This document shows positions 5,820-15,755 of a stretch of DNA of 34,899 nucleotides, in pieces. How positions within the stretch are numbered: position 1 is the stretch's first letter; each line of letters starts with the position of its first letter. Made by a program: the position numbers and the translations under genes. The stretch spans positions 1-34,899 of the forward strand of contig JADGCN010000022.1 in assembly GCA_015228975.1 (NCBI GenBank). Direction: 5' to 3'. Under the pieces are notes generated by a model. That model did no database searches, was not told where the DNA came from, and was given only the letters and a program-made list of their open reading frames with translations. This stretch comes from Magnetococcales bacterium. GTDB taxonomy: Bacteria > Pseudomonadota > Magnetococcia > Magnetococcales > UBA8363.

Positions 5820-5988
5820 GGCCTTGATCATCGTTTCGGCCAAAGCGCATGGAAGATGCTTCGGCTCCGTCTGGATTCCCGCTTTCGCGGGAATGACAAA
5901 CGACTGCAATCTCAGGAGATTTTTTCGTCATTCCCGCGAAAGCGGGAATCCAGAATGAGTCGGCACGGACGAAATGATGATCAAGGCC
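5820..5988. mobile_element. MITE-like element, copy 1 (169 bp)
   Basis: The termini are inverted repeats: the left end GGCCTTGATCATCGTTTCG matches the reverse complement of the right end with one difference over 19 bases. Inside are two palindromes, 5875-5894 and 5930-5949, each fitting ATTCCC-N8-GGGAAT, and together they form a large inverted repeat able to fold into a long hairpin. The element has no coding capacity. It is bounded by a perfect 9-bp direct repeat, so it probably moved as a non-autonomous unit using a transposase encoded elsewhere. It differs from copy 2 at only two positions, suggesting recent activity or gene conversion. The palindromes resemble the neisserial dRS3 consensus. 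Confidence 0.88.
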
Positions 5989-6217: not shown

Positions 6218-6296
6218 TGGGGTTACGCGGGGGTTACAAGCTGTCTTGCCCCCGGTTGTTTGGAAACGGTCAGTTTCGAATAATGACCCAAGCAAC

Positions 6297-6465
6297 GGCC
6301 TTGATCATCGTTTCGGCCAAAGCGCATGGAAGATGCTTCGGCTCCGTCTGGATTCCCGCTTTCGCGGGAATGACAAACGACTGCAATCTCAGGAGATTCT
6401 TTCGTCATTCCCGCGAAAGCGGGAATCCAGAATGAGTCGGCACGGACGAAACGATGATCAAGGCC
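6297..6465. mobile_element. MITE-like element, copy 2 (169 bp)
   Basis: Same length and orientation as copy 1, with two substitutions in 169 bases. Here the GGCCTTGATCATCGTTTCG terminal repeats are perfect over 19 bases. It holds the same pair of ATTCCC-N8-GGGAAT palindromes. Its flanks show no target duplication (CCAAGCAAC on the left, CAATCGATG on the right), so one flank has changed, by recombination between copies, by deletion, or by a later rearrangement. The element ends 45 bases from the stop of the minus-strand response regulator, so its palindromes could also act as the 3' end of that transcript. The stretch 6122-6510 holds only the two hairpins and this element. Confidence 0.85.
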
Positions 6466-8609: not shown

Positions 8610-8997
8610 TTATACTTGGAAATAATTAGCATTTAATCAGTATATACAAAATTATTCTAATAATCTATAAAAATAATTTATTTATTGGTGCTGGGCATGT
8701 CTGATAGGCTTGTAGGTGAAGGTTCTCCATCCCGCCAGATGGGGCGAAAGGATTAGTGCCACGCAGGTATGGTGGACCCCAAAAATGCGACAAATCGTTT
8801 ATTGAAAGCAAATGGCGTTTGATCCATTCCCGGTGAACCAGTACACTTTGACGAGTCCCTTCTTCAAACCAGAACCGATGCCCGGGTAACACGCAGGGTA
8901 ACTCGGGGAATTTGTTGAAAACCGGTTCAAAATGTGCGATCTTCGGGGTGGCGTGGGTCATTGGAATGGGTTTGGATACTATTGAGGAGCTTTTCTT
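8610..8997. other. AT-rich spacer with no recognised gene
   Basis: The first 80 bases are very AT-rich (about 8612-8690), unlike the surrounding DNA. The remainder has normal composition. An open frame runs on the minus strand from inside the next gene down to 8665, but I recognise no domain in it and it has no supported start, so I do not call it. GAGGAG just before 8998 is the ribosome site of the downstream gene. Confidence 0.6.
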
Positions 8998-9984
8998 ATG
9001 GTGCAGATTACGATGAAGAAGGGGATAGTGACCCTGATGATGGGTTTGATGCTCTCCTGGGGCACCACTGCCGCCGCCCGGGATGAGGAAAAGCCGTTCT
9101 CCGATGCCGAGGTGAACAAATGGATCACCGACTATCCCGAACTGCTGCAATGGAGCCGGAAAAATCAAAACATCACCAACCCGTCGAATCAACCCTGGAT
9201 TATCGCTGGCATGCGTCACAACAAAGGATTCATCGACCAGCTCACCGCCAAAGGGTGGACCGCGGACCGGTTTTTTTACACCCTCGATCATCTACAGCAA
9301 GGGCTTCGGATTCATAACGCCCGCAAAGACCAAATCCAGGCGCAGCAGCGCATGAAACAGAGCCGGCAGCAATTCCAAAACGCCGCCAGCGAAATGGCCC
9401 AAAGGGCCGCTGCCAGCCAAAAGGAAATGGAAGCCGCCAGCAAAGAACAACAGGCATGGGCCAGGAAACAACTGGAGGATCAGGAGCGGCGCATCCGCCA
9501 GGATCCCACCATGAATCCCTGGCAAAAACAGCAATCCCTGGAATTTTTGCGTCAACAACGCGCCTGGATTCAGCAATCCTCCGCACCCGCCACGGCACAA
9601 AACGGACAGCAACAATTCCAGCAGGCGCAAAGGCAATCCATCATCAACAATCCCTATATCCCCGAAGGGCAAAAACGTTGGATACTACAGCAGATGCAAT
9701 CCAACCCGGGCACCCAGCCCCAAGCCGTCATGAATCCTGAACAGGCCCGGGATGCCATGATCAAGCAACAAAAAATGTGGATCGCCCAACAAAAGGCCCA
9801 GTTGGCCAGCAACCCGTATATCCCCTACGAACAGCGCCAAATCATGGAGCGGCAAATGCAACAGTATGTCCGCAACATGGAAGAGGGGGCGCGCCAAAGT
9901 TACCGGATCCCCTCCATTCTCCCCGGCGGGGAAATGGAACTGGTCGGAAAGTACAGTGACAAACTGCAAAAAATATTCCAATAA
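8998..9984 (+). CDS. Secreted Gln-rich protein with repeated NPxxP motifs, function unknown
   Basis: 328 residues. The start ATG has GAGGAG 8 bases upstream; a second ATG five codons on would give a shorter signal peptide. Residues 1-27 are a Sec signal peptide with likely cleavage after TTAAA or AAA. Residues 33-105 form a compact domain (FSDAEVNKWI...GWTADRFFYTLDHLQQGL). Residues 110-170 are strongly charged and Gln/Ala-rich, probably a long helix or coiled coil. Then a degenerate unit appears three times: DPTMNPWQKQQSLEFLRQQ, NNPYIPEGQKRWILQQMQ and SNPYIPYEQRQIMERQMQ. The protein is predicted periplasmic. It stands alone between the signalling genes and odhA. I do not recognise the family and assign no function. 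Confidence 0.8.
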   Translation: MVQITMKKGIVTLMMGLMLSWGTTAAARDEEKPFSDAEVNKWITDYPELLQWSRKNQNITNPSNQPWIIAGMRHNKGFIDQLTAKGWTADRFFYTLDHLQQGLRIHNARKDQIQAQQRMKQSRQQFQNAASEMAQRAAASQKEMEAASKEQQAWARKQLEDQERRIRQDPTMNPWQKQQSLEFLRQQRAWIQQSSAPATAQNGQQQFQQAQRQSIINNPYIPEGQKRWILQQMQSNPGTQPQAVMNPEQARDAMIKQQKMWIAQQKAQLASNPYIPYEQRQIMERQMQQYVRNMEEGARQSYRIPSILPGGEMELVGKYSDKLQKIFQ

Positions 9985-10142
9985 TATTTCCTTCATGGAC
10001 GCCCTCCTGGTCTTGGCACTGCCGGGTTCCACAGGGGGCGACCTTCCTTAGAAGGGTCACAATCCACCCTTTGCTTGCCCAGGGCATGACCCGGACGCTA
10101 CTCGGCAACAAACCATGGGTCCATAGAGAGCTGGAGGTGAAC

Positions 10143-13058
10143 ATGCCCAATCCGCCCAATCCGGTTGACTCCTGCTTGAGTGGCGCCAATGCCCTCTATC
10201 TGGGTGAACTTTACGCCCGTTTCCTGGCGGATCAGGGATCCGTTGATCCCGCAAGCGCCCGGTTCCTGTCGCAATTCCTTGGCGACAGCCGCACGGATAT
10301 CCTTCAGGAATTGCAGGGTGCCGTCTGGGACCGGGAGCGCAGCACGCTCGTCAACCGCATTCGGGATGTCCAGGTTTCGGCACCCACCCCCGCAACCACC
10401 GCCTCATTCCCCTCCACACAAGGATCCCGCCAGGCCACCCTGGACTCCCTGCGCGCCCTGATGCTGATCCGCTCCTACCGGGTCCGGGGCCACCTGAACG
10501 CCTGCTTCGATCCCCTGGGACTGGCCGGCAAGGGGCAATTCCCCGAACTGGATCCCGCCACCTACGGCTTCCACGACAACGACATGGATCGCCCCATCTT
10601 CCTCGACAACGTCCTGGGGCTGGAGATGGCCTCCATGCGACAAATCCTGCATATCCTGCAACAATGCTACTGCAGTTCGGTCGGCGTCGAGTTCATGCAT
10701 ATCCAGGATGTCGAACAAAAAGCCTGGATCCAACAGCGTATCGAAAGCAATGGCAACCGCAGCACTTTTTCTGTCCCAGAAAAAAGTGCCATCCTGGAAC
10801 GATTGAGCCATGCGGAACAGTTCGAGCGTTTTTTGCAAAAAAAATACACGGGAACCAAGCGTTTCGGATTGGAAGGTGGGGAAACGTTGATCCCGGCCCT
10901 GGAGCAAATCCTGCAACAAGGGGCGATCCAGGGCGTCCGTGAAATCGTCCTGGGAATGGCGCATCGCGGACGATTGAATGTCCTGGCCAATGTGCTGCAA
11001 AAACCCTACAGGGTCATGTTCTTTGAATTCCAGGGGGGATCGGCCAACCCCGAGGATGTCCAGGGATCGGGCGATGTCCGTTACCACCTGGGTTCGTCCG
11101 CCGACCGCATTTTCGACGGCCACCCGGTCCATCTCACCCTGCAACCCAACCCATCCCACTTGGAACTCGTCAACCCGGTGGTCCTCGGCAAGGTGCGTTC
11201 CAAACAAAACATGGCGGGGGACAACGGACGCACGGAGGTCATGGCCATTCTGTTGCACGGCGATGCCGCCTTCTCCGGGCAGGGTTTGGTGGCGGAAAGC
11301 TTGGCATTGTCGGGGCTTGAAGGCTATTCGACCGGGGGAACGGTTCACATCATTATCAACAACCAGATCGGATTCACCACCAACCCCTCCGCATCCCGCT
11401 CCACCCCCTACCCTTCCGATGTCGCCAAGGTGATTCAGGCACCCATTTTCCACGTCAACGGCGACGATCCCGAAGCCGTTGTCCACGCGGTGCGCTTGGC
11501 AACCGAATTTCGTCAGGAATTCGGCTGGGACGCGGTCGTGGACATGTTTTGCTACCGTCGCCATGGGCACAACGAAAGCGACGAACCCATGTTCACCCAA
11601 CCCATCATGTACCGTACCATCGCCAAACATCCCTCAACGCCCGAGCTGTATGCCCGACAATTGGATCGCGAAGGTTTGGGTGGGTCCGAGATGTTGGCCC
11701 GCTTACGCAGCGACTTTGAAGCCCACCTGGAAGAGGAATTCACCAAGGCGCAGGATTACAAAGCCGATAAGGCCGATTGGCTGGAAGGGGAATGGAAAGG
11801 GTTGTCCCACCTGGGTTCCGAAGAGGAACATCATGATTACCAGACCGATGTTTCCCTGGATCTCCTCAAGGAAGTGGGGTGGGCGATTTCCAAGGTGCCC
11901 GAACCTTTCGCCGTCAATTCCAAGATTGTCCGGCAATTGCGCAGCAAACGCGACATGATCGATTCCGCTTCCGGGTTGGACTGGGCCACGGCCGAAGCCC
12001 TGGCTTTCGGCACACTCCTGGTGGAAGGGATTGGTATACGGCTCTCCGGCCAGGATTGCGGTCGGGGTACTTTTTCCCAGCGCCAGTCGGTATTGGTCGA
12101 TCAGGAAAACGAGGCCCGCTACTATCCCCTCAATCATATCCGACCGGATCAGGCCCTTTACAAAGTCTACGATTCACCCCTGGCCGAAGCCTCGGTACTG
12201 GGATACGAATACGGCTACGCCTCCCACGACCCTTTCACCCTGGTGATTTGGGAAGCCCAGTTCGGTGATTTCGCCAATGGCGCACAAATGATCATCGACC
12301 AATTCCTGAGTGCCGGGGAATCCAAATGGCTGCGCCTGAATGGTTTGACCATCCTCCTGCCGCACGGCTACGAAGGTCAGGGACCGGAACACTCCTCGGC
12401 GCGTCCCGAACGGTTTTTGCAATTGTGCGCGGAGGATAACCTCCAGATCTGCAATCTGACCACCCCGGCGAATTATTTCCATGCCCTGCGGCGGCAGATT
12501 CGCCGCAATTTTCGCAAGCCATTGATCATTTTCACCCCCAAATCCTTGTTGCGCCATCCGGGATGTGTTTCCAACCTGGCCGATTGCGCCACCGGCTCCT
12601 CTTTCAAACGCATCCTCCCCGAGGAGTTCCCTCTGGTGGACAACGAGCGGATACGGCGTGTGATCCTGTGTACCGGAAAAGTCTATTATGACCTTCTGGA
12701 AACGAGGAACGCCCAAGGCATCGATGATTGCGCCCTGATTCGCGTGGAACAGCTCTACCCATGGCCCCGGGATGCCCTGTTCCATCAATTGCAGCTCTAT
12801 CCCCGGGCCGAAGTCGTCTGGTGCCAGGAGGAACCCGCCAACATGGGGGCATGGTCCTTTGTCTTTCCCAGACTGATCCACCTGTTGCATGACCTGGAAC
12901 GCAAGGAACAACGCCCGGGCTATGCCGGTCGGGAAGCCTCGGCGTCACCCGCTACGGGCTTGCACAAAAAACATGTCGTGGAACAAAAACTATTGGTCGA
13001 GCAGGCGCTGCGTTGGAACTTTGGCGAACTGCCACTACCCTTTCGCCGTAAACCTTAG
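10143..13058 (+). CDS. sucA: 2-oxoglutarate dehydrogenase E1 component
   Basis: Thiamine-diphosphate E1 subunit that decarboxylates 2-oxoglutarate and passes the succinyl group to lipoyl-E2 in the TCA cycle. 971 residues. Start ATG at 10143 follows GGAGGTGA at ideal spacing; the frame is open 24 codons further upstream but without conservation. An early NALYLGELYARFLADQGSVD segment is the E2-binding N-terminal arm. Further on are the HRGRLNVLANVLQKP active-site motif, GDAAFSGQG, and the thiamine-diphosphate motif GDDPEAVVHAVRLA with YRRHGHNESDEP. The C-terminal half has LLPHGYEGQGPEHSSARPER. First gene of the odhA-odhB-lpdA operon. Confidence 0.97.
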   Translation: MPNPPNPVDSCLSGANALYLGELYARFLADQGSVDPASARFLSQFLGDSRTDILQELQGAVWDRERSTLVNRIRDVQVSAPTPATTASFPSTQGSRQATLDSLRALMLIRSYRVRGHLNACFDPLGLAGKGQFPELDPATYGFHDNDMDRPIFLDNVLGLEMASMRQILHILQQCYCSSVGVEFMHIQDVEQKAWIQQRIESNGNRSTFSVPEKSAILERLSHAEQFERFLQKKYTGTKRFGLEGGETLIPALEQILQQGAIQGVREIVLGMAHRGRLNVLANVLQKPYRVMFFEFQGGSANPEDVQGSGDVRYHLGSSADRIFDGHPVHLTLQPNPSHLELVNPVVLGKVRSKQNMAGDNGRTEVMAILLHGDAAFSGQGLVAESLALSGLEGYSTGGTVHIIINNQIGFTTNPSASRSTPYPSDVAKVIQAPIFHVNGDDPEAVVHAVRLATEFRQEFGWDAVVDMFCYRRHGHNESDEPMFTQPIMYRTIAKHPSTPELYARQLDREGLGGSEMLARLRSDFEAHLEEEFTKAQDYKADKADWLEGEWKGLSHLGSEEEHHDYQTDVSLDLLKEVGWAISKVPEPFAVNSKIVRQLRSKRDMIDSASGLDWATAEALAFGTLLVEGIGIRLSGQDCGRGTFSQRQSVLVDQENEARYYPLNHIRPDQALYKVYDSPLAEASVLGYEYGYASHDPFTLVIWEAQFGDFANGAQMIIDQFLSAGESKWLRLNGLTILLPHGYEGQGPEHSSARPERFLQLCAEDNLQICNLTTPANYFHALRRQIRRNFRKPLIIFTPKSLLRHPGCVSNLADCATGSSFKRILPEEFPLVDNERIRRVILCTGKVYYDLLETRNAQGIDDCALIRVEQLYPWPRDALFHQLQLYPRAEVVWCQEEPANMGAWSFVFPRLIHLLHDLERKEQRPGYAGREASASPATGLHKKHVVEQKLLVEQALRWNFGELPLPFRRKP

Positions 13059-13128: not shown

Positions 13129-14322
13129 ATGACGATCGAAATCAGAGTCCCCTCCCTGGGGGAATCCATTGTGGAAGCAACCGTGGTCAAATGGCACAAA
13201 GCCGAGGGCGATGCGGTGGTCGCCGGCGAGGTGTTGTGCGAATTGGAAACCGACAAGGTCACCATGGAAGTACCGGCCCCGGAATCGGGGATACTCAGCC
13301 AAATCGTCGCCCCGCTTGATACCGATATCGGTGTCGGTGCCGTGCTGGCCCGCATGGAAGCCGGAGCTGTTGCCGGGAAACCAGCAGCGGATCACGTCGC
13401 ACCTCCCCCTGAGCCGACATCACCGAAAATTCCCAAGTTGTCACCTGCTGTGCGCAAACAATTGGAAGAAAAAGGACTCAATGCTTCGCAAATTCCGGCC
13501 ACAGGTGCAGGCAATCGCCTAACCAAAGGGGATGTCAATCAATTTACGACAGCACCAAGCAAACACCAGGAATCACCACCGCAATCCAGCGCTGGGCAGT
13601 TTCCGCCAGCGGTACAGGGACCACGCGAACAACGGGTACGCATGTCGCGTCTCAGGCAACGCATCGCCCAACGCCTGAAGGAGGCGCAAAACACCGCCGC
13701 CATGCTCACCACGTTCAACGAAGTGGACATGACCGAGGTGATGAATTGGCGCCAGACCTATCGTGACAGCTTTGAAAAAAGACACGGGGTCCGCCTCGGC
13801 TTCATGTCGTTTTTTGTCAAGGCTTCGGTTGCAGCCTTGCAGGAATTCCCTGCGGTCAATGCAGAAATTCAAGGCGATGAATTGGTGTACCGCAATTATT
13901 ATGATTTGGGCATCGCCGTTGGCACCAGCCATGGCCTGGTGGTACCCATCCTGCGGGATGCCGATCTCCTGTCCATCCCCGCCATCGAACAACAGATTAC
14001 CGAATTTGGCCGCCGTGCCGAGGCGGGACGTTTAAGCCTGGAGGAATTGCAAGGGGGAACCTTCACCATTACCAATGGTGGGGTCTTTGGCTCCCTGCTC
14101 TCCACCCCCATACTCAACACCCCCCAGTCCGGTATCCTCGGGATGCATAAAATTCAGCAACGACCCGTTGTCATGCCCGATGGCGGCATCTGCGCCCGTC
14201 CCATGATGTATCTGGCATTAAGTTATGACCACCGGGTCGTCGATGGTCGCGAAGCGGTCTCTTTCCTGGTTCGCATCAAAGAGTACATCGAAAATCCCGG
14301 TCGCATCATGCTGGGTGCCTGA
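13129..14322 (+). CDS. sucB: Dihydrolipoyllysine-residue succinyltransferase, E2 of 2-oxoglutarate dehydrogenase
   Basis: 397 residues forming the core of the complex. An N-terminal lipoyl domain (1-76) carries Lys43 within [11 protein letters not shown], the lipoylation site. A linker leads to a peripheral-subunit binding domain (about 101-132, [20 protein letters not shown]). After a second flexible linker the catalytic domain (about 165-397) ends with [11 protein letters not shown], which holds the catalytic His and Asp. The single lipoyl domain and DHRVVDG motif fit the succinyl class rather than pyruvate dehydrogenase E2. AGGTGG precedes the ATG, 70 bases after odhA. Confidence 0.96.
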
Positions 14323-14345
14323 CTTTTCCCCTGGGGAGTCCAATC

Positions 14346-15755
14346 ATGTCGAAAGAATGCGATTTGCTTGTCATTGGTGCCGGTCCCGGCGGGTATGTCG
14401 CCGCCATTCGTGCGGCACAACTGGGACTCACAACCATCTGCGTCGATAAACGCCACCTTTTGGGCGGTACCTGCCTCAATGTCGGCTGCATCCCTTCCAA
14501 AGCCCTGCTCCATTCAACACACCTCCTGGCCATGGCGCAGCACGAACTCGCCCTGCACGGGGTCCAGGTCAGCGGCATCCAGGCGGATCTGGCAACCATG
14601 ATGGCCCACAAGGATCGGGTGGTCAGCCAGTTGACCGCCGGTATTGAATTTTTATTCAAAAAAAACAAAATTACCAAAATGCAGGGCACCGCCACCCTCA
14701 TCACCCCGGACACCGTCTCCATCAGAGATGAATCCGGGTCGGAACAAACCATTCAGGCCAAACATATCCTGATTGCCAGCGGTTCCCAGCCCGCGACCCT
14801 CCCGGGTTTCGTCTTTGATGGTGAACGGGTCATCAGCTCCACCGAAGCTCTTTTTTTAAAAGTAATCCCCGACAAATTGGCTATCATTGGCGCCGGTGTG
14901 ATCGGTTTGGAATTGGGATCCGTCTGGCGTCGGTTGGGCAGCGCCGTCACGGTGATCGAATTTACCGATACCGTCCTGCCCGGCATGGACGGTGAACTGC
15001 GTAAACAAGCGGCACGTATTTTGACTAAACAAGGATTGCAATTCAAGTTATCCACCCGTGCCCTGGGAGCTGAAATCCAAGGCAACGGTGTCGCAGTGAC
15101 CCTCGCCCCGGTTGCAGGGACAGCCCATCAAGAGGTCTTGCAGGTCGATAAGGTATTACTCGCCGTGGGGCGCGTCCCATGCACCGAATCCCTGGGCTTG
15201 GAATCTTTGGGCATTGCCCTGGATAGCAAAGGTTTCATCCCGGTGGATCACAATTATCGCACCAAGATCCCCAACATTCTGGCCATTGGTGATGTGATTG
15301 GTGGCCCCATGTTGGCACACAAGGCGGAAGAAGAAGGTGTGTGTGCCGTGGAACGTTTGCTAGGTCAGGGAGGACAGGTCCATTGGGATCGCATCCCCGG
15401 GGTGGTGTATACCCAGCCAGAAATAGCCGCGGTGGGGCGTACTGAGGAATCCCTCCAAAAACAAGGGGTGGCCTATCGCGTGGGCAAGTTTCCCTTTTCC
15501 GCCAACTCCCGGGCACGCGCTGTCGATCAAACCGAAGGTTTTGTTAAAATTCTCGCCGCAGCCGACACCGACATGATCCTGGGTGCCCACATCATCGGAC
15601 CCCAGGCGGGCGATTTGATCGCAGAGATCGTGTTGGCGATGGAAAGTGATCTATCAGCCGAAGATGTAGCCCGTACCTGCCACGCCCATCCGGCTTTCGG
15701 GGAAGCGATCAAAGAAGCCGCGCTGGCGGTTGATGGCCGGGCCATTCACGTCTGA
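14346..15755 (+). CDS. lpdA: Dihydrolipoyl dehydrogenase (E3)
   Basis: FAD flavoprotein that reoxidises the lipoyl groups of E2 and reduces NAD+. 469 residues. An N-terminal FAD motif VIGAGPGGYVAA is followed by the redox disulfide Cys43/Cys48 in GGTCLNVGCIPSKALL. The NAD motif is IIGAGVIGLELGSVW (near 178), the second FAD contact is LAIGDVIGGPMLAHKAEEEG, and CHAHPAFGEAIKEA near the C-terminus is the catalytic His-Glu pair. GGGAG stands 7 bases before the ATG. Third gene of the operon; it lies 23 bases after odhB and could also serve other 2-oxoacid dehydrogenases. Confidence 0.97.
   Translation: MSKECDLLVIGAGPGGYVAAIRAAQLGLTTICVDKRHLLGGTCLNVGCIPSKALLHSTHLLAMAQHELALHGVQVSGIQADLATMMAHKDRVVSQLTAGIEFLFKKNKITKMQGTATLITPDTVSIRDESGSEQTIQAKHILIASGSQPATLPGFVFDGERVISSTEALFLKVIPDKLAIIGAGVIGLELGSVWRRLGSAVTVIEFTDTVLPGMDGELRKQAARILTKQGLQFKLSTRALGAEIQGNGVAVTLAPVAGTAHQEVLQVDKVLLAVGRVPCTESLGLESLGIALDSKGFIPVDHNYRTKIPNILAIGDVIGGPMLAHKAEEEGVCAVERLLGQGGQVHWDRIPGVVYTQPEIAAVGRTEESLQKQGVAYRVGKFPFSANSRARAVDQTEGFVKILAAADTDMILGAHIIGPQAGDLIAEIVLAMESDLSAEDVARTCHAHPAFGEAIKEAALAVDGRAIHV

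Follow-up and report, generated by a model that had tools for sequence, protein, structure and literature searches.

A predicted periplasmic helical repeat protein of Magnetococcales with three homologous hairpin units

In this study, the window was a stretch of 34,899 nucleotides from a contig of a Magnetococcales bacterium. It contains an open reading frame at 8998–9984 on the plus strand (ATG at 8998, stop at 9984), and the question was what its 328-aa product is and what it does. The first-pass annotation had described the product as an orphan Gln-rich protein with a clear signal peptide and three spaced copies of an NPYIPxxQR-type motif. From this pattern it had proposed that a helical hairpin or binding site recurs in a periplasmic protein, and it had recognised no family and no functional neighbours. 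A search for conserved neighbours was proposed as a check, and a match to a described domain was named as counter-evidence. The reading frame is a real gene, and its product is very probably a secreted periplasmic helical repeat protein. The features of the locus are given in Table 1.

Table 1. Features of the window and loci of the one-unit relatives
Feature	Position in window	Strand	Basis
Junction, start of the DNA common to the closest relative genome	8858	.	Sequence identity
Ribosome-binding site GAGGAG	8984–8989	+	Direct reading; 8 nt 5' of ATG 8998
Signal peptide, residues 1–27, without lipobox Cys	8998–9078	+	K7 K8, hydrophobic run, AxA; pattern common to the family
N-terminal helical domain, residues 30–106 (~77 residues)	9085–9315	+	A3 alignment, AF2 helices
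Gln/Lys/Ala-rich stretch of the long helix, residues 107–168	9316–9501	+	AF2 helix 89–168; composition
Hairpin unit 1, residues 160–189, divergent in the window genome	9475–9564	+	Unit profiles, alignment
Hairpin unit 2, residues 211–240, NNPYIPEGQK	9628–9717	+	Unit profiles, alignment
Hairpin unit 3, residues 265–294, SNPYIPYEQR	9790–9879	+	Unit profiles; pairs with the single unit of the one-unit family
Conserved C-terminal tail, residues 307–328, plus stop codon	9916–9984	+	Alignment; pairs with the tail of the one-unit family
sucA, 2-oxoglutarate dehydrogenase E1	10071–13058, likely start 10143	+	NCBIfam PRK09404 above cut-off
sucB (13129–14322) and dihydrolipoyl dehydrogenase (14346–15755)	13129–15755	+	NCBIfam above cut-off
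Members of the ~190-aa periplasmic family: f40 loci L084–L103; singles elsewhere, L104/L113, L114, L115			

A simple signal-peptide rule (K/R, then a hydrophobic run, then [AVST]xA) was passed by 22 of the 26 full-length family members. The other four have no strict cleavage motif and keep the charged N-terminus and the hydrophobic run. The mature chain of the window protein contains no Cys and 18.6% Gln, and the Gln content is 24.5% across residues 106–297. The pI was 7.9–9.9 (basic) in 25/26 Magnetococcales members and 7.1 in the remaining one, and both Cys and His were absent among the invariant residues of the family. Ten residues of the N-terminal domain are invariant: P4, F5, E9, Y17, W38, L53, W58, R62, Y65, and G73, in the numbering of the N-domain alignment A3. 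The consensus of the C-terminal tail across the Magnetococcales family is LPxxExxLIxxNxxKLxxLF. The AlphaFold2 (AF2) model of the window protein, made with 26 sequences, was all-helical, with a pLDDT of 75.9 and a pTM of 0.44; at this pTM the local hairpins are credible, and the overall packing is unreliable. The N-terminal domain was predicted to consist of helices 36–56, 67–74, and 76–84 and the beginning of helix 89–168.

The hairpin units are about 30 residues long and have the architecture helix-[N-P-x-hydrophobic-P]-helix in three copies, with an approximate consensus of Q-x-x-I-R-x-N-P-Y-I-P-P-x-Q-K-Q-x-x-L-x-Q-L. The string NPYIP occurs exactly twice in the window protein, once in unit 2 and once in unit 3. 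The corresponding stretch of unit 1 is QDPTMNPWQKQ, whereas in most relatives this unit is near the consensus. Unit profiles were cut from A1, the alignment of the 26 full-length members, from which L027, a fragment of 135 residues lying at the end of a contig, was excluded. Comparison of the unit profiles by hhalign gave E values of 1.1e-18 for R1-R2, 3.5e-15 for R1-R3, and 6e-19 for R2-R3, and for each pair the score was matched by 0 of 100 column shuffles. The three hairpin units are homologous to one another. All 26 full sequences showed three aligned units in an unexpanded array, with two to five matches per member to a loose unit pattern.

In the AF2 model, the helix was broken at every NP-x-x-P stretch. 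The long helix stops at residue 168 in unit 1 and is followed by helix 174–193; unit 2 was modelled as helices 200–216 and 223–235, and unit 3 as helices 247–271 and 277–299, with the loop at NP-x-hydrophobic-P. A low-complexity artefact was rejected because dN/dS was well below 1 and because of the column-shuffle controls. The signal peptide noted in the first-pass annotation was borne out by the family-wide pattern. The repeated periplasmic hairpin was supported as well, since the units were predicted to be helix-loop-helix and their profiles are homologous; the suggested binding site stays conjectural. The three motif copies hold for units 2 and 3, and fail for the divergent unit 1 of the window genome.

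The gene has a single copy in its own genome, and the description as an orphan was too strong: relatives are present in 26 other Magnetococcales genomes, remote ones occur in other Proteobacteria, and some neighbouring genes recur. All 20 relatives from a scan of named genome contigs belonged to Magnetococcales, and a protein search over 100 relative genomes matched 28, all of the same order. One of these matches (L028 in G013) was a partial copy with two stops and was excluded from the member count; tblastn and profile searches found no family reading frame in the stretch around it (L083). The A3 profile matched 27/48 Magnetococcales genomes at E<1e-27. Presence was patchy, with matches in 7/8 genomes of the window's genus, 14/18 of f7, 4/5 of f9, one of f13, and one of f14; other Magnetococcales families had no family members, and many genomes of the order are incomplete. 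The 21 order genomes with no A3 match included G018, a single contig of 4.7 Mb, probably Magnetococcus marinus. Beyond the order, A3 gave no match at E<0.01 among 350 genomes; six of the 350 had E values of 0.01–0.1 (best 0.0119), which were judged chance matches. The family is confined to Magnetococcales within the sampled genomes.

The dN/dS values (Nei-Gojobori) were 0.11–0.25 across six pairs. The value for the window gene and its closest relative was 0.22, and that of sucA in the same genome pair was 0.11. Purifying selection keeps the family gene intact. Searches of the window protein against Pfam, NCBIfam, and PHROGs gave nothing at E<0.09, in agreement with the initial failure to recognise a family, and no described domain was matched by the window protein in the profile searches. 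Across the 26 members, 16 Pfam families were matched at E 0.1 by any member. Among the literature titles seen on Magnetococcales periplasmic or hypothetical proteins and on LTxxQ, CpxP, Spy, ZraP, and CnrX, none was about the window protein. The family is new and uncharacterised, and Pfam and NCBIfam give it no name.

When the A1 profile was compared with 299 genomes of the phylum, a single non-Magnetococcales match fell below E 0.001: a 191-aa protein of G177 (E 6.6e-5). A search with this protein found relatives in 39/61 genomes of its own family (f40) and, with mostly weak matches at E≤0.01, in 10 of the 299 genomes sampled across the phylum. This ~190-aa periplasmic family (L084–L104, L114, L115) is unnamed and has no Pfam match of note. 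Twenty one-unit members were aligned (A2), excluding L100, a near-duplicate of L101, and the divergent L105. A1 and A2 matched by hhalign at E 7.5e-7 across unit 3 and the C-terminal tail, with a score of 52.1 against a shuffle maximum of 22.5. The loose unit pattern had one match in 14/20 members of A2 and none in 6/20.

The AF2 model of L084 (191 aa, pTM 0.70) had the same helix order as the window protein: a helix, a loop region with short helices, a helix ending in GF, a long helix, an NNP turn, a helix, and a C-terminal helix. The GF turn corresponds to GW in the window protein. Both families have a signal peptide, an N-terminal helical domain, a long helix, a hairpin with N-P-x-hydrophobic-x-x-x-Q-[KR], and a C-terminal helix. 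The one-unit family has one unit instead of three, and its members are acidic (pI 4.1–5.6), whereas the Magnetococcales family is basic; therefore, charge is not common to both families. When the N-domains of the two families were compared alone, the E values of 0.041 and 0.031 from two tests were not significant; in the second test, 6/150 shuffles scored as high. With three diverse members added, the result was marginal (E 0.011, 0/200 shuffles). Since the N-domains alone were at best marginally alike, common descent is concluded for the hairpin and tail, and for the whole protein it is considered likely.

Spy and CpxP hold clients without ATP, and in these proteins an LTxxQ cap starts a helix; the turn of the hairpin units resembles such a cap. 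The LTXXQ family (PF07813) also takes in ZraP and CnrX, and its typical fold is a helical dimer shaped like a cradle. LTXXQ proteins and the window family are both exported and all-helical, with a helix start capped by hydrophobic-T/P-x-x-Q, and differ in length and unit number. The PF07813 HMM gave no match at E 0.1 in any of the 26 members, and at the helix start the units mostly read [IML]-[PH]-P-x-[QE]-[KR] in place of LTxxQ. A profile from an alignment of 30 LTXXQ segments matched A1 at E 0.13 over 15 columns, with 6/100 shuffles as high, and A2 at E 0.021 (z 4.0, 0/100 shuffles) over just 11 columns, so the likeness spans at most 15 columns. Pfam LTXXQ was weakly matched by 3/20 one-unit members (best E 0.0063), among 29 families. 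In NCBIfam, CpxP was matched by 1/20 (E 0.0018) and Spy by 2/20 (E 0.0093), among 14 weakly matched families. Because these tests were weak or negative, the family was not placed in LTXXQ, and working like Spy/CpxP was treated only as a lead.

Fold comparison of both models by Foldseek and VIA-align found no solved fold at E≤0.001. The best fold Z values were 8.4 (60 residues aligned) and 6.2 (65 residues aligned), which the tool deems common for helical proteins. In the Foldseek search with the window model (pTM 0.44), the CpxP chain 3itf_A was listed only at E 8.6. The best PDB sequence-profile matches, vimentin for A1 (E 0.022) and interleukin-2 for A2 (E 0.083), were judged helical chance matches. 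None of the 16 families that the 26 members matched at E 0.1 was DUF2059 (PF09832). The A2 profile matched a DUF2059 protein, L116, at E 3.4e-5 over profile positions 10–92. This likeness covers the signal peptide and N-terminal helices and lies apart from the Pfam DUF2059 domain (L116 residues 87–145), and the match may reflect the signal peptide.

Gene order was read in 27 loci including the window; L034 was too short upstream, leaving 26 testable loci. The neighbours were run against Pfam with one or two representatives each. A SIS-domain GmhA-like gene lay upstream in 14/26 testable loci from three lineages: on the same strand in 4/6 testable loci of f1 (the window's genus) and 4/4 loci of f9, and divergently oriented, beyond a gene for a universal stress protein, in 6/6 loci of g17. 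It was upstream in 0/8 loci of g7 and missing from the single f13 and the single f14 locus. sucA was directly downstream in 7/7 f1 loci. The neighbours differ from lineage to lineage. The claim of no functional neighbours applies only to the window genome, in which the upstream junction is broken; across the family, recurring genes contradict it. A ~105-aa protein (MRLALTNGN...) was also encoded upstream in 7/8 g7 loci (L035, L045, L047, L048, L053, L055, L056), and the one copy scanned (L045) had no Pfam match at E 0.001.

From the architecture and the weak Spy/CpxP likeness, the protein is tentatively read as an ATP-independent periplasmic chaperone or scaffold working like Spy/CpxP, a possible role held at well below even confidence. 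The exported, soluble, all-alpha protein would reside in the periplasm, where the N-terminal domain and the long Gln/Lys-rich helix would bear three tandem hairpins. Each would carry N-P-x-hydrophobic-P-x-x-Q-[KR] as its cap, and the molecule would end in a short closing helix at the C-terminus. The hairpins may make an extended helical surface, mostly basic (pI 7.1–9.9), that would hold client proteins or components of the envelope independently of ATP and so serve envelope maintenance. With a single ancestral hairpin triplicated, the surface available for binding would have been multiplied. The GmhA-like neighbours, and the RND-pump neighbours of one lineage, agree with an envelope role. Against the chaperone reading stand the LTXXQ and fold searches described above, the true LTXXQ proteins that Magnetococcales already own (above cut-off in 44/61 genomes searched), and the variable neighbours, with no gmhA-like gene upstream in one genus and suc genes in another. 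A broader version, rather improbable, is a new chaperone or adaptor class, in which a single hairpin with a helical cap like that of Spy/CpxP would have been tripled on an N-domain specific to the lineage, giving a holdase of the magnetotactic coccus envelope that grew out of a wider uncharacterised one-hairpin family.

CnrX-type sensors bind either an RND pump, on its periplasmic side, or the substrate of the pump, and the protein might likewise be an accessory or sensor of a transport system, which is unlikely. The order gmhA-like gene, family gene, HlyD adaptor, and AcrB-type RND pump in 4/4 f9 loci (L036, L037, L038, L041; Pfam scan of one of the four) favours such a role, together with the 7-bp gap to the adaptor gene in the one locus read (L036) and a convergent sensor histidine kinase downstream in several f7 loci. 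No pump gene adjoins the family gene in the seven f1 loci and none was seen in f7, f13, and f14, and the lack of invariant Cys and His also speaks against it. Self-assembly of the Gln-rich helices into periplasmic or extracellular oligomers or fibres (a spacer, matrix, or glue) would suit the Gln content, the long helix, and the repeated hairpins, but the unexpanded array of three aligned units in 26/26 full sequences, the conserved N-domain, and the absence of an anchor motif put this reading, too, on the unlikely side. GmhA is associated with LPS heptose, and the GmhA-like gene adjoining in three lineages could indicate an LPS or outer-membrane biogenesis factor coupled to heptose supply. 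Such a factor is quite unlikely: the link is missing in g7, f13, f14, and the window genome, and the GmhA-like neighbour scores 202 and 195.5 bits, under the NCBIfam equivalog cut-off of 209.45. Moreover, gmhA-like genes occur in 8/8 family-less genomes tested, and no family member turned up when the surroundings of four such genes (L158–L161) were searched with profiles; therefore, the link is not obligatory. A magnetosome-associated role, suggested by the occurrence of the three-unit form solely in an order of magnetotactic bacteria, is very improbable and was rejected as unsupported: magnetosome genes were not noticed beside the family gene, the family was not found in 21/48 order genomes, G018 included, and one-unit relatives occur in other Proteobacteria.

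If the chaperone reading is true, an undescribed family would join the few envelope chaperones that work independently of ATP, and it would be an example of chaperone growth through tripling a single hairpin. As the Magnetococcales-specific protein is tied to a proteobacterial family that has no name, a single functional test would help annotate both.

The broken upstream junction was traced by comparison with the closest relative genome, to which the window is 95.8% identical over 6.9 kb from 8858 on. The usual upstream gmhA-like gene is absent to the left of 8858 and sits on contig C176 (95% identical). The identity of C176 to the relative also breaks, at the 3' end of the gmhA-like gene (G000:C176 near 4316, L153). 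In the relative, the two matches share 13 bp (L051 reversed, 9806–9818), which suggests that 13 kb or more was inserted, or another rearrangement took place, between the gmhA-like gene and the window gene; a misassembly may also account for it. The end of C176 (1–61) repeats window positions 5820–5871 and 6288–6348 at 95–100% identity.
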